IMG/VR virus record: IMGVR_UViG_3300031999_000232
Span: 1 to 20,923 of that record
DNA: 20,923 nt
Direction: 5' to 3' (one strand)
Origin: a virus
In this document: positions 1,851 to 19,940 of the stretch, one piece after another
Numbering within the stretch: position 1 is the stretch's first letter
Layout: every line of letters begins with the position of its first letter
Program-made: the position numbers and the translations under genes
Notes under the pieces: generated by a model
The model's input: the letters and a program-made list of their open reading frames with translations, nothing else
What the model was told of the DNA's origin: nothing
Databases searched by the model: none

Positions 1851-1977
1851 CTCATACTATTTATGAGGAACATCACTCTTACGTGATGTGTGTTACATAA
1901 ACCTCCTTCCTTCCATACGAAGAATATTATATTCTTCGACCTCCTTTTTCTAGGGGAATCCAGTTCTTGGGTTCCCC
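1851..1977 (+). ncRNA. candidate structured RNA: four hairpins and two anti-Shine-Dalgarno octamers
   Basis: No gene fits this gap. On the + strand four simple hairpins follow one another: CTCATA/TATGAG (1851-1867), ACATCAC/GTGATGT (1870-1889), CGAAGAATA/TATTCTTCG (1918-1938) and the terminator-like stem at 1953-1977. The linkers around the third hairpin each carry an exact ACCTCCTT octamer (1901-1908 and 1939-1946), the same bases as the anti-Shine-Dalgarno at the 3' end of bacterial 16S rRNA. Both octamers lie outside the drawn stems and so could be single-stranded. Such an RNA could pair with AAGGAG-type ribosome sites, which many genes here use. Whether it is a separate transcript, a processed 3' UTR or a leader is unknown. 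I see no strong promoter; TTGATC at 1828 is the best -35-like match, without a well-spaced -10. Confidence 0.35.
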
Positions 1978-1985
1978 TTATTTAT
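1953..1985 (+). terminator. putative intrinsic terminator upstream of the endonuclease gene
   Basis: GGGGAATCC (1953-1961) pairs with GGGTTCCCC (1969-1977) to form a 9-bp stem with one G-T wobble and a 7-base loop, followed by TTATTTATT. The stem is GC-rich in an AT-rich setting. The T tract is interrupted, so termination may be partial. It would end transcription arriving from the dUTPase-lipase block or define the 3' end of the candidate structured RNA. Confidence 0.6.
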
Positions 1986-2014
1986 TACATGCCTATACTA
2001 AATCTGGAGATCTT

Positions 2015-3894: not shown

Positions 3895-3917
3895 TGAGTA
3901 AGGTGGAGGGAAGTATT

Positions 3918-4580
3918 ATGTCTGTAAATTTAAGAACCATAACTGAAAAACAAGAACTTGCTATGATAGAAAAAGAAAATCCAGAATATAAAGCATTGAT
4001 TTCTATTTATCCAGCAGAATTATCTAGTGTATTAATAAATAGTAAAGATAAATTGGCTAAAATATGTAAAAGTCTTTCAAGTGCTTTAAGTTATACTTCT
4101 ACAAATGCTGTGATTATGACTTGTTCTAATAAGTGTCCATATGTGGATGTATGTGTTCTAATAAAGAATGATTTAACTCCGACTGGATATCCATGTCCTA
4201 TAGAGAAAAAAGTCATTATGGAGATGGAATCTGATATAGTCGACTATCTAGAAATAGATAGAAATAATCCTATAGAGATGGAAATGTTATGGGATTTAAT
4301 CGATTCTAAAATTCTAGATATGAGAGCAAGTGGTGCTTTAAAGAGTGGAAAATTAACACAAACAGTTGAACAAAAAGTTGGACAACAAATAGTTACAAGA
4401 GAAGAAATTGCACCAGAAATTGAAATAAAAATGGAACTTAAGAGAATAAAAGCCAATATTATGGATGCGTTTGTTAGTACTAGAAGATCCAAGAAAAAGT
4501 ATGGCATGAATAATGATGTTTCAACTCTTGAACAAATGATATTACAAGCAGCCAATAATGTATCTAGTAAAATCGATTAA
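3918..4580 (+). CDS. unknown four-cysteine phage protein, 220 aa
   Basis: The frame can start at 3894, where the ATG overlaps the endolysin stop, but GGAGGG seven bases before the ATG at 3918 is a much better ribosome site, so I use 3918. The central feature is a cysteine set C69-x3-C73-x5-C79-x13-C93 inside TCSNKCPYVDVC and GYPCPIEK, which looks like a metal site (Fe-S or zinc). It is followed by long acidic helices (IVDYLEIDRNNPIEMEMLWDL) and a basic tail with RRSKKK. It heads the block of virion genes leading to the terminase. A packaging or assembly role, possibly in the place of a small terminase, is conceivable, but I cannot show it. Confidence 0.7.
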   Translation: MSVNLRTITEKQELAMIEKENPEYKALISIYPAELSSVLINSKDKLAKICKSLSSALSYTSTNAVIMTCSNKCPYVDVCVLIKNDLTPTGYPCPIEKKVIMEMESDIVDYLEIDRNNPIEMEMLWDLIDSKILDMRASGALKSGKLTQTVEQKVGQQIVTREEIAPEIEIKMELKRIKANIMDAFVSTRRSKKKYGMNNDVSTLEQMILQAANNVSSKID

Positions 4581-6848: not shown

Positions 6849-6953
6849 ATGAGATCTGATGAAATTGTATCAAAAATAGAAACTGATGTGTTAAAATTAT
6901 TAGAAACTACAATCAATATCTACATTAATAAGAGGTTTTATGTCAATAGATAA
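6849..6953 (+). CDS. possible small helical protein, 34 aa, overlapping the terminase start
   Basis: The ATG follows the previous TAA directly (TAAATG), and AAAGGA lies six bases upstream, a proper ribosome site. The 34-aa product (MRSDEIVSKIETDVLKLLET at its start) looks like a single amphipathic helix ending in a basic tail. It overlaps the first 14 bases of the terminase gene in another frame, so its main role could be to couple ribosomes to the terminase start, which has AAGAGG close upstream. No family recognised. Confidence 0.45.
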   Translation: MRSDEIVSKIETDVLKLLETTINIYINKRFYVNR

Positions 6954-9900
6954 AAATATATTAGAAACATTTGAAAATCCAGTTATATGGTGTGAGTCTT
7001 ATTTAAGAGATCCTAGAGATAAAGAAAAACCACTAATTCTTCGATCATATCAAAAAGAACTTATAGAAAATTCGATAAAATATCAACAGATGATTACGCA
7101 ATGGGGTCGCCGATGTTTAGTTAAAAATAGTAATATTCTTATGTTTGACGGATCAATCAAAAAAATAGAAGATATTACAATTGGAGATAGTGTTTGCACA
7201 TTTAATAATAATCAAATAAAAAAAGGTATAATTGAAAAATTATTTGATAACGGAATCCAAGATGTTTATAAAGTTAGATTATTTGATGGTCGAGAAATAG
7301 AATGTACGGATAATCATCCGTTTCTAATAAGTGTTGGTAATAAATTATTTTACAAAACTATACAGGACGGACTTACTGTTGGAAATAGATGTTTGGTTAT
7401 AAAAGAATATAAAAAATTTGGCACATATCATAATATTGATGAGGCTAAATTATTAGGATATTTATTAACAGGCGGATATATAAATTGCGAATCTAATCAA
7501 ACGCCCAAATTTACCAGTTGTAATTATGATTACATATTGGACGTTCAACAATTGATACAAAAATTATTTGGATATAATGGAACAATAAAAAAACGGAAAA
7601 ATGCAAACGCTTATGATATTTGGCTTACCAACGGAAATAAAGGAAAAAAAAATAGAGTAAAACAATGGATTTTAGAAAATAATTTATCAGGAACTAAAGC
7701 AAAACATAAGAAAATATTGAATTATATAAAAAAATATAATTCAGAATCTTTATCTTATTTTATAAATAGAATTTTTTCTGGTGATGGTTGTATATCTCTG
7801 AATATTAGAAAAGATAGAATAAGTTTTGGGAAAGCAATTGATATAAATTTAACATCATGTAATTTAGAATTTTTGAAGGATTTTAGATCAGTACTTTATA
7901 AACTTGGAGTAAATTCTAAAATAAAAAAGGAATTGAAGAAAAGTCCCTCTTCTAACAAAATTTGTTTAAATTATAAATTATATTTTAGTGATTCTTATAG
8001 TATAAAAAATTTCTTATCTTTTGTTGGAAATGTATATGGAAAAGAAAAAAATTGCATAGAAGCATTAGAAGAACTCGATAAAAGATATTCAACGTTAATT
8101 GAGAAAACAGATAATAATTTTTATACCTCAAAAATATCAAAAATTGAATATGTTGGTAAAAAACAAACATATGATATAACTGTAAAAAGATATCATAACT
8201 TTATATCTGACGGAATAATTACTCATAATTCAGGTAAAAGTGTTGTTATGTGCGCGGATTGTCTTTGGTGGGCATCTGTCTATCCAATATTAAGAATGAT
8301 TAAAAATAAAGAAAAAAATCAAAAACCTTTTAGAATATTAGTGTTTGCTCCTTATGAATCTCAAGTAGATGAATTATGGAATACATTTATTCAATTAATT
8401 GGAGATTCTCCTTTATTAAAAGATCAGATTGAAAAAATTAGGACATCTGATACGCATCTAATACAATTTAAAGGAACTGGAAATAATAAAGGAAGTACTA
8501 TCGAAGGATATACAATAGGAATTAGTTCATCAAATCAGGGAATTTCTCTCAGAGGTCTTTGTTTAGCAGAAGATACTAGAATTACTATGGTAAATGGTAT
8601 TACTAAAAACATTAATAATATACAAGTTGGAGAAAAAATAATAGCATTTAATGAAGAAATAAACTTGTTTGTTGAAGATGAAATAGAATTAATTGCTGAT
8701 GAACAGGAAAAAGAATTATTTGAAATACTTTTGCAATCAGGAAAAAAAATTAAGTCTTCAAAAGATCATAAATTTTTGACAGATAATGGTTGGAAAAAAT
8801 TATCAGAAATAACTTTATTTGATAAGATAAAAACAGTTGATTATATAATTAAAATAGGTATTAGTTCCAATAAAATAGATCCTTTATATGATAAAATAAT
8901 TTCGATTAAATCTATAGGAATAAAAAAATGTTATGATATTACTACTAAAAAATATCATAACTTTATAGCAAACGGAATAATTACTCATAATTCAGGAGAT
9001 TTAATATTTATTGATGAAATGGATTTTATTCCAACAGCAATTATGGAACAAATTCTTATACCTATTACTACTACACATCCAGATTGTAGGTTTAGAATAT
9101 GTTCTACTCCATCAGGTGCTAGAGAATTATATTATAAATATTGTACACAGGCAAAAGAGAGAGGTTGGTATCATTCACATATTCCATCTTGGCACGTTAA
9201 TAATGAAAATTGGATGAGTCAACAACAAGCATTAGATTTAGGTCTACCAATTACTAAAAGTTCTGAATTTCAGGTAAAAAGTGTTACTAGTTCTGATAAT
9301 TACTCGCGCGAGTATGGGGCAGAATTTGGAGAGGAATATGGAGGAGTTTATAAACACCATTTAATACATAAATCTCTTGTAAAATATGGAAGAAATATTG
9401 ACATTAGTGATCCTCTTGTTTTTAATCCAGAATTTCAACAAAATGTTTTACATAAATATATTATTGGTGTAGATTGGAATAGTTATATTAATGGTGGTCA
9501 GATAGTTGTTTTAGAATTTTGTACAACTCCTACTTTTGTTAATTATTTCGATGATGATAAAAATCAAGAAGTAACTATTGATTTTACAGGAAGATATAGA
9601 CTATTCTATAGAAAGAGTATTAAATCCAAGGACGCAACACAACGACTTACTAGACAAGAAATTATAAGATTACTAACTTACTATAAAATTGATTATTTAT
9701 ATGTAGACTATGGAGCAGGGGATACTAATATAGAAGAACTAACACTTTATGGACGTCAGCATCCAGAATTAAATCTTTCTCAAAAATTAAGAGTTATTGA
9801 TAGTGGTGCTGTAGTTGAGCATTATGATCACGTTATTCAAAAGATGGTTAAAAAAAGAAATAAATCACTTATGATTAATTTCTCTGTATTATCATTAGAA

Positions 9901-10326
9901 GAGGGAATGTTTGTTCTTCCTAAAGAAGAAGATACAGACACTAGACTAATTGGACAGATGCGTAATTATATTGTTAAACATGTTACAGCCAGAGGTGAGT
10001 ATGCCTATGAGGGGGAAGATCATATTCTTGATGCTTTTAATTTAGCAGTATATGGATTCCAACAAAATTTTGGTCAACTTTTAACCTCTAGAGTTACATA
10101 TCAAATTAATTTATTTCCAGATCCTCGGGCACAAATGTATCCTCAAAGAGCATCTACTGTGAATGGTCCAATTCCAATTACAAAATTTAAATCTAATGGA
10201 ACTTATAATATGCCAATTAGAGATCCTGATAAACCAATACAAGTTCAATCACCACGAAGAGGATTTTTACCAGGAATTGGTTCAAGACAAAATATTTCTC
10301 AAGGATTTGGAAGGAGAAAATTTTAA
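6940..10326 (+). CDS. terL: terminase large subunit precursor interrupted by two inteins (1128 aa; 612 aa after splicing)
   Basis: TerL is the ATP-driven motor that cuts concatemeric phage DNA and pumps it into the prohead through the portal. Once the inteins at residues 59-430 and 541-684 are removed, the exteins join to give Walker A GRRSGKS (Lys433 in precursor numbering) and Walker B LIFIDEMDF (Asp692, Glu693), followed by the coupling-type STPSG motif. The RNase H-like nuclease has its three acidic positions: GVDWNS (Asp845), YVDYGAGD (Asp923) and HILDAFN (Asp1031). The spliced length of 612 aa is normal for TerL. The C-terminus is Arg/Gly-rich. AAGAGG lies five bases before the ATG. No frameshift or stop interrupts the frame, so the precursor should be made whole and mature by protein splicing. 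Confidence 0.95.
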   Translation: MSIDKNILETFENPVIWCESYLRDPRDKEKPLILRSYQKELIENSIKYQQMITQWGRRCLVKNSNILMFDGSIKKIEDITIGDSVCTFNNNQIKKGIIEKLFDNGIQDVYKVRLFDGREIECTDNHPFLISVGNKLFYKTIQDGLTVGNRCLVIKEYKKFGTYHNIDEAKLLGYLLTGGYINCESNQTPKFTSCNYDYILDVQQLIQKLFGYNGTIKKRKNANAYDIWLTNGNKGKKNRVKQWILENNLSGTKAKHKKILNYIKKYNSESLSYFINRIFSGDGCISLNIRKDRISFGKAIDINLTSCNLEFLKDFRSVLYKLGVNSKIKKELKKSPSSNKICLNYKLYFSDSYSIKNFLSFVGNVYGKEKNCIEALEELDKRYSTLIEKTDNNFYTSKISKIEYVGKKQTYDITVKRYHNFISDGIITHNSGKSVVMCADCLWWASVYPILRMIKNKEKNQKPFRILVFAPYESQVDELWNTFIQLIGDSPLLKDQIEKIRTSDTHLIQFKGTGNNKGSTIEGYTIGISSSNQGISLRGLCLAEDTRITMVNGITKNINNIQVGEKIIAFNEEINLFVEDEIELIADEQEKELFEILLQSGKKIKSSKDHKFLTDNGWKKLSEITLFDKIKTVDYIIKIGISSNKIDPLYDKIISIKSIGIKKCYDITTKKYHNFIANGIITHNSGDLIFIDEMDFIPTAIMEQILIPITTTHPDCRFRICSTPSGARELYYKYCTQAKERGWYHSHIPSWHVNNENWMSQQQALDLGLPITKSSEFQVKSVTSSDNYSREYGAEFGEEYGGVYKHHLIHKSLVKYGRNIDISDPLVFNPEFQQNVLHKYIIGVDWNSYINGGQIVVLEFCTTPTFVNYFDDDKNQEVTIDFTGRYRLFYRKSIKSKDATQRLTRQEIIRLLTYYKIDYLYVDYGAGDTNIEELTLYGRQHPELNLSQKLRVIDSGAVVEHYDHVIQKMVKKRNKSLMINFSVLSLEEGMFVLPKEEDTDTRLIGQMRNYIVKHVTARGEYAYEGEDHILDAFNLAVYGFQQNFGQLLTSRVTYQINLFPDPRAQMYPQRASTVNGPIPITKFKSNGTYNMPIRDPDKPIQVQSPRRGFLPGIGSRQNISQGFGRRKF
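7114..8229 (+). other. intein 1 in TerL Walker A loop, 372 aa, with LAGLIDADG endonuclease domain
   Basis: The intein begins at Cys59 of the precursor, right after QWGRR, and ends at Asn430, before Ser431-Gly-Lys-Ser, so it splits the ATP-binding loop. Splicing residues are present: N-terminal Cys in CLVKNSNILM, block B ECTDNHPF with T-x-x-H, block F YDITVKRYHNF, and the terminal GIITHN with penultimate His and final Asn, followed by Ser as +1 nucleophile. Between the blocks lies a two-motif LAGLIDADG homing endonuclease: AKLLGYLLTGGYI (7447-7482) and FINRIFSGDGCI (beginning about 7759). The second has its acidic residue (Asp282). In the first, the position normally Asp is Gly178 (codon GGC at 7471-7473). 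Splicing should work; DNA cutting probably does not. Confidence 0.94.
8190..8234 (+). repeat. 45-bp direct repeat, copy 1 (3' end of intein 1)
   Basis: This stretch matches 8952-8996 at 41 of 45 positions; the only differences are the four bases at 8206-8209. It codes for the YHNFI..GIITHN|SG splicing end. The last 25 bases (8210-8234) are identical to 8972-8996. Copy 2 is listed separately. Confidence 0.9.
8560..8991 (+). other. intein 2 in TerL, 144-aa mini-intein next to Walker B
   Basis: It starts at Cys541 (after ISLRGL) and ends at Asn684, before Ser685-Gly-Asp-Leu of the Walker B strand. The splicing blocks are present: CLAEDTRITM (block A), SSKDHKF (block B, Ser in place of the usual Thr, His kept), CYDITTKKYHNF (block F) and ANGIITHN (block G), with Ser as +1 residue. 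At 144 aa there is no room for a homing endonuclease and no LAGLIDADG motif is seen, so it is a mini-intein that splices but cannot home by itself. Its C-terminal end is nearly identical in DNA to that of intein 1. Confidence 0.93.
8952..8996 (+). repeat. 45-bp direct repeat, copy 2 (3' end of intein 2)
   Basis: Counterpart of 8190-8234, in the same orientation and frame, with differences only at 8968-8971. Recombination between the copies would delete 762 bp in frame (254 codons), including the ATPase extein between the inteins. Confidence 0.9.
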
Positions 10327-19301: not shown

Positions 19302-19940
19302 ATGGCAAAGGAAGTAAAAGGAAAAAGAGAAGAATTTAAATTACCAAAATATTTAAGATTGGATAAAGGATCAATGTGGTTTGATTTAGATGGAGAAATG
19401 GCTTCTGGTATTAAATTATATGCGGTTCAAAATATTTTAGTTGGAAGAACACCTGGTAGTAAAGAAATTGTAAAAGATGAATTTGATAATAATAATCTAT
19501 TAAATTATGGAAAGATACCATCAAATCTTCCATGGTATATTGATACTACAAAAATTCCAAATGAAAAATTATCTAGGATTTTATTAGCATTTAAAAATGG
19601 AATATTAGTTGAGACCAATATAGAAAATCCTCCAAAACCATTTGTAAATAAAGACGATAGAGATTTTAAATATATTAAAGATGGCGATAGAATATTTAAT
19701 GGTAAAAATAAAGAAATATATGTTAGACTACAACAACTTAACTTTGATAGATTAAGAAATTTTATTAATGAAACACCTAAGAACGAAACTGGTCGACAAA
19801 ATTTAATGGATATGTTTGAATATGAAAAGAAGGGTTATAATCCTTTAAGTCGTCCACGATTCGAAGTTCTAGAACTAATTAGATCTAAATTAAGGGAATT
19901 TGGAAACGGAATAAGTGTTATAAGGAAGAATGAGGACTAA
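19302..19940 (+). CDS. unknown phage protein, 212 aa, possible head-completion protein
   Basis: AAGGAG nine bases before the ATG is a strong ribosome site. The protein is hydrophilic with many Lys, Asn, Asp and Arg. Notable stretches are KYLRLDKGSMWFDLDGEM near residues 17-34 and an RPRFEVLELIRSKLREF helix near the C-terminus. No cysteine cluster, membrane segment or enzyme motif is seen. As the first gene after the capsid terminator it sits where head-completion or head-tail connector proteins are commonly coded. Family not recognised. Confidence 0.7.
   Translation: MAKEVKGKREEFKLPKYLRLDKGSMWFDLDGEMASGIKLYAVQNILVGRTPGSKEIVKDEFDNNNLLNYGKIPSNLPWYIDTTKIPNEKLSRILLAFKNGILVETNIENPPKPFVNKDDRDFKYIKDGDRIFNGKNKEIYVRLQQLNFDRLRNFINETPKNETGRQNLMDMFEYEKKGYNPLSRPRFEVLELIRSKLREFGNGISVIRKNED

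Follow-up and report, generated by a model that had tools for sequence, protein, structure and literature searches.

A predicted gene for an antisense small RNA in a large tailed phage, with complementarity to a translation start upstream of the terminase genes

The locus and its promoter-like and terminator elements

The window comprises an entire IMG/VR fragment (20,923 bases; 30% G+C) and carries genes for a dUTPase, a lipase, an endopeptidase-like protein, a terminase with two intein domains, a portal protein, and the major capsid protein; the nearest isolated phages (Bacillus phage KLEB27-3, Moorella phage MTATph1, and Acinetobacter phage ME3) show 24–32% protein identity. The two intein/Hint domains of the terminase large subunit (6940–10326) are located at about residues 67–430 and from residue 539, with LAGLIDADG in the first. 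The class 3 lipase gene (437–1165) lies in the late region and is kept in two of the related phages described below (G001 and L173). A VSR-like endonuclease ORF (2015–2539), containing an N-terminal Cys motif and WDSSIxGFRLKK, occupies the same place in all eight phages covering the spot, and looks more like a resident than a mobile gene; in its C-terminal half it is similar to the homing endonucleases of Twort-like phages.

The gap ahead of the endonuclease ORF had been described in a first-pass annotation as a non-coding stretch with four successive hairpins, the last terminator-like, and two exact anti-Shine–Dalgarno octamers on either side of a perfect 9-bp hairpin. No ORF of at least 50 amino acids is present on either strand at 1824–1966, and the nuclease ORF, in its extended TTG reading, reaches the gap only from 1967. 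Both octamers (ACCTCCTT, at 1901–1908 and 1939–1946) were recovered, with no other copy on either strand of the whole window, as was the perfect hairpin between them (CGAAGAATA-TTA-TATTCTTCG); at least two copies of the octamer also occurred in 10 of 100 dinucleotide shuffles of the window, and the octamer count by itself is weak evidence and not significant. All four hairpins appear in the predicted fold (1851–1867, 1870–1889, 1918–1938, and 1953–1977; z = −4.2 for the region against shuffles), and the last is terminator-like, with a U-run (TTATTTATT) that is interrupted in the window. The first hairpin, however, contains a TAT[A/G]CTA-type box and is therefore better read as a promoter, the position of which suggests that the RNA starts at about 1865. 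The elements are summarized in Table 1.

Table 1. Positions of the predicted small RNA gene, its elements, and its predicted target in the window
Feature	Position	Strand	Remarks
Promoter-like box	1851–1864	+	CATACTATTTATG; phage TAT[A/G]CTA type; hairpin 1 of the first-pass annotation
Predicted small RNA gene	1865–1987	+	About 120 nt; own promoter-like box and terminator; syntenic layout kept
5′ hairpin	1870–1889	+	ACATCAC/GTGATGT
Seed tract	1895–1910	+	ACATAAACCTCCTTCC; includes first octamer; antisense to SD, spacer, and AUG of ORF 3918–4580
9-bp hairpin	1918–1938	+	Separates two CU tracts; missing here in G001, G006, G007, and L103
Second CU tract	1939–1952	+	ACCTCCTTTTTCTA; includes second octamer
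Intrinsic terminator	1953–1987	+	GGGGAATCCAGTTCTTGGGTTCCCC and TTATTTATT; hairpin and U-run
Promoter box of downstream endonuclease gene	1994–2000	+	TATACTA
Target site	3905–3921	+	GGAGGGAAGTATTATGT; SD to start codon of target gene
Target gene	3918–4580	+	220-aa helical protein, four conserved Cys; upstream of terminase genes

The near-complete-sized genomes of relatives allowed the box to be examined more widely. On the sense strand of gaps between co-oriented genes, TATACTA occurs 7, 5, and 8 times in G001, G007, and G006, respectively (expected, about 1.6–1.9), with no clear enrichment of TATAAT in the same comparison. Copies lie a short distance upstream of tRNA-like sequences and of many genes, among them the endonuclease gene downstream of the RNA, where the box is found in the window and in the relatives covering the spot. 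TATACTA is probably a phage-specific promoter class in these three genomes. About 25–30 nt before the promoter box of the RNA, G001, G006, and G007 have AAAGTGA in common, which may be an upstream promoter element. Both a promoter-like box of its own and an intrinsic terminator, the hallmarks of an autonomous small RNA gene, can be recognized here at the sequence level.

Several other readings of the stretch were rejected. Coding of the CU tract is contradicted by indels between relatives that break the frame. On the minus strand, expression of which had been named as an argument against such an RNA, AAGGAGGTTTATG is directly followed by TAA, the SD-like site leading to ATG-TAA, and relatives have short unrelated peptides there. 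A group I intron with a homing endonuclease was discarded, as no Rfam match was found and the genes on either side of the spot are intact in all relatives. Rfam searches gave no match at the gathering threshold for the window, and none at E ≤ 1 for 1824–2014.

Conservation of the layout in related phages

Relatives were found by searches with the capsid protein, the endonuclease, and ORF 3918–4580, and comprise three records of near-complete size (G001, 230 kb; G006, 213 kb; G007, 219 kb) and the fragments G005, G008 (L103), G009 (L107), L099, and L173. A direct DNA search of the phage collection yielded no relatives, and scanning with one neighbouring protein at a time (148 and 119 aa) yielded nothing. 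A pattern scan for H1 plus CCTCC matched G001 alone; a scan for the seed plus CTTTCTCC gave 22 matches, three of which are the known relatives G001, G006, and G007, while the other 19, whose neighbour genes do not correspond, look like chance. No RNA of this kind lies within 1 kb upstream of the target homologue of KLEB27-3, and the comparison with MTATph1 was one of gene order only.

Where covered, the syntenic spot is bordered by the 148-aa gene (with small basic ORFs) on one side and by the VSR-like endonuclease gene on the other. G001 has an identical box (CTCATACTATTTATGAG), the hairpin GTGCTGG-GAAA-CCAGCAC, TACATAAAACCTCCTCCTTCC, GCACCTCCTTTCTCC, and the terminator; in G006, with the box TATGCTATTAAT, the layout is CTTATGCTATTAATAGG, a hairpin, CATAAACCTCCCTTC, and the terminator; and in G007, with the box TATGCTAAAAAT, it is CTTATGCTAAAAATAAAGG, a hairpin, GGTGCATAAAACCTCCCTTTCCGCACC, and the terminator. 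The promoter box, the hairpin, CATAAA(A)CCTCC, and the terminator are thus kept in all three genomes, whereas the flanking proteins are only about 40–67% identical. A shorter version of the RNA, with the box ACTATACTATAG and without the CATAAACCTCC tract, is present in L103, and in L107, G005, and L173 the terminator is present and the CATAAACCTCC tract absent.

Among the individual elements, the 5′ hairpin recurs, always with at least 7 bp, in the window and at the corresponding spot of each of the four relatives that have an RNA, its sequences being unrelated. The terminator hairpin and U-run are found in all relatives with the syntenic spot, the loop GTTCT being common to the window, G001, G006, and G007. 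The 9-bp hairpin between the CU tracts is, on this comparison, a lineage-specific insertion. The pyrimidine tract ahead of the terminator is kept in G001, L103, and L107, and loosely in G006, G007, and G005; folds of the window and G001 suggest that the tract with the second octamer could base-pair with the GAGG at the 5′ end of the same RNA; alternatively, it may have other targets. The pair of octamers singled out initially is not conserved, with one exact copy in G001 and none in G006 or G007. What the check for a conserved layout in related phages did bring out is a longer conserved tract, complementary to one gene from its SD through the spacer to the start codon.

Complementarity between the seed tract and one translation start

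Read as its reverse complement, the motif CATAAA(A)CCTCC gives GGAGG-TTT(T)-ATG, an entire translation start. In the window, the seed tract pairs with the site at ORF 3918–4580 by 15 bp with one mismatch and one bulge. When the seeds were compared with all called starts by RNAduplex, the best partner was the same ortholog in all four genomes, ranking first among 314 starts in G001 (−27.8 kcal/mol), 285 in G006 (−21.0 kcal/mol), 287 in G007 (−24.0 kcal/mol), and 26 in the window (−17.7 kcal/mol), the last comparison covering 26 genes only. G001 (GAGGAGGTTTTATGT) and G007 (AAGGGAGGTTTTATG) each form 15 perfect base pairs at the target start, and these 15 nt are the longest exact complement of the whole RNA anywhere in either genome outside the RNA gene (next, 12 nt). 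GGAGGTTTTATG occurs in one of the 314 starts of G001 and in two of the 287 of G007. The second octamer tract has no target that is consistent between genomes.

The complementarity to the SD and start codon of a phage mRNA, as known for phage antisense RNAs, is furthermore held by compensatory change. GAGGAGGTTTTATG pairs with CATAAAACCTCCTC in G001, and AAGGGAGGTTTTATG with CATAAAACCTCCCTT in G007; the two targets differ at SD positions −10/−11 (A/G and G/A), and the seeds match, exchanging A-U for G-C and G-C for A-U. The cognate combination of seeds and targets is the best of the 24 permutations, G006 and G007 being nearly interchangeable. Because the orthologs share ancestry, the four genomes are not independent, and only the compensatory positions are. 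The model leads to the prediction that the upstream neighbour of L099, which has a G001-type start (GAGGAGGTTTTATGT), would carry ACATAAAACCTCCTC.

Among 99 reciprocal-best-hit triplets, the target scored z = −5.4, and the next group −3.6. Antisense copies of the 99 ortholog starts produced no second ortholog target matching the −72.8 of the actual seed and target (best, −62.1), and with dinucleotide-shuffled seeds z was −9.1 (best, −49.9 in 2000 trials). Where the seed is absent (L107, G005, and L173), the target gene also has no GGAGG start, and for the L103 RNA, which is without the CATAAACCTCC tract, the best start in the contig is that of another gene. In cofolding of whole RNAs, a method that models loop-type contacts poorly, the target was not first in G006. 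Gene starts were taken from a simple ORF caller, so that some of them will be wrong; ATG codons within the first 40–50 codons were also tried.

For the target gene itself, the start was set at ATG 3918 instead of the automatic 3894, a choice that provides an SD and fits the relatives. The protein is conserved in relatives (45–60% identity), has no Pfam match and no significant PHROG match, and no homologue was found in genome_contigs. Its structure model is of low confidence (pLDDT 61), and a search with the model gave no significant PDB match, the significant matches being confined to unnamed viral proteins. With neither kind of match, and beside terminase and structural genes, the gene does not fit the antirepressor target of a lysogeny switch. 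The gene after the major capsid gene (window 19302–19940; G001:147057–147746) is the consistent second-best seed target in G001, G006, and G007 (z = −3.6 in relatives); pairing is weaker in the window (−11.4), where 19302 was matched to the relatives' gene by position.

Proposed function, alternatives, and comparison with known systems

Based on the conserved gene layout, the seed–target complementarity with compensatory change, and its genome-wide specificity, we consider it probable (roughly 0.8) that 1865–1987, in a large tailed phage, is the gene of a small antisense RNA that acts in trans and lowers the amount of the ORF 3918–4580 protein. In the mechanism that we infer, the small RNA would be transcribed from its own phage-type promoter and would end at its own terminator, with the 5′ hairpin and the terminator hairpin holding the CU-rich seed open. 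In the cell, the seed would pair with the target mRNA, encoded about 2 kb downstream, from its SD across the spacer to the start codon; this would prevent 30S binding, resulting in less target protein, with or without decay of the mRNA. Since the exposed stretch is complementary to the translation start, production of the target protein is probably turned off or down; repression rather than activation is the expected outcome.

The first-pass annotation had suggested that an RNA presenting two open octamers could mask AAGGAG sites of host or phage messages, or tune phage late genes. A small plus-strand non-coding RNA with an open SD-complementary sequence, probably tuning a phage late gene, agrees with our results; two equivalent octamers and general masking of AAGGAG do not. 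Titration of many SD sites by open ACCUCCUU copies, or mimicry of the 16S rRNA 3′ end, appears improbable, even though strong SDs precede about 35–40% of starts and the seed also pairs reasonably well with a second ortholog, the gene that follows the major capsid gene (z = −3.6). The exact octamers are lost in G006 and G007, the seed runs on through the spacer and AUG of one gene, and the targets of the second tract differ between genomes. The supposition that AAGGAG or GGAGG serves almost every late gene did not hold in the window, where these precede 4 and 1 of the 25 called starts, respectively. The noted resemblance to the 16S 3′ end is real for the second tract of G001 and L103 (CACCTCCTTTCT) but absent from G006 and G007, on which ground 16S mimicry was rejected as the main function.

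The terminator persists in all relatives, even those without the tract, as would be expected of a mere cis element, an untranslated region and terminator between two operons, CU-rich by chance and without a regulatory RNA; conservation of the tract and a 15-nt specific complementarity with compensatory changes would then be left unexplained, and we regard this reading as quite improbable. That the same RNA and target instead pair within one long read-through transcript, or that the RNA protects or activates the target mRNA, is highly improbable: RNA and target do lie on the same strand 2 kb apart, and the terminator U-run of the window is interrupted, but the pairing covers the SD and AUG, which normally blocks initiation, and strong terminators and separate promoter boxes favour separate transcripts.

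Beyond a single target, we tentatively raise the possibility of an autonomous small-RNA family in large tailed phages that adjusts the amounts of several morphogenesis proteins, that of ORF 3918–4580 and then that of the gene after the major capsid gene; were this true, it would represent post-transcriptional control of late genes, not a lysogeny switch. A conserved small RNA directed against a gene start in the packaging/structural region would show that phages of the 200-kb class tune late genes by RNA pairing, and the prediction is specified down to single bases. The open-access papers that were searched contained no RNA of this kind for this group of phages.

Most phage antisense RNAs known to have phage targets function in lysogeny decisions. 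The C4 antisense RNA is among the Rfam families, and in c4 the RNA and its target are on the same strand. In c4 of P1/P7, complementary stretches in open regions of the folded RNA pair around a phage ribosome binding site and block translation (PMC12197685). The predicted RNA likewise has open stretches, in a folded phage RNA, that are complementary to the ribosome binding site of a phage mRNA; unlike c4, which controls an antirepressor in lysogeny, it would act on a gene beside the packaging genes of a large phage, and has a putative promoter and terminator of its own and no match to any Rfam family. The sar RNA comes from the locus of its target. It is 68/69 nt long in P22 and targets a phage mRNA by pairing at its translation start (PMC12197685). 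The predicted RNA is similarly a small phage RNA directed against such a start, whereas sar acts on the ant antirepressor, and here the RNA gene is 2 kb from its target and the pairing is short. In Gram-positive RNAs of the LhrC and RNAIII type, C/U-rich open CU/UCCC motifs between hairpins bind SD regions. Open C/U-rich tracts between hairpins are seen here too, but those RNAs bind many host mRNAs by short C-rich motifs, in contrast to a 12–15-nt seed whose complementarity includes the spacer and AUG of a single phage gene. PreS (phage lambda) and VpdS (VP882) are trans-encoded, base-pairing, and Hfq-dependent RNAs, PreS acting on host dnaN (PMC12197685). The present RNA is also predicted to be trans-encoded and to act by base pairing, its predicted target being a phage gene and not host dnaN. 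Altogether, it is most likely that the RNA works by a mechanism like that of c4 and sar, with no Rfam match and in a different genomic setting.
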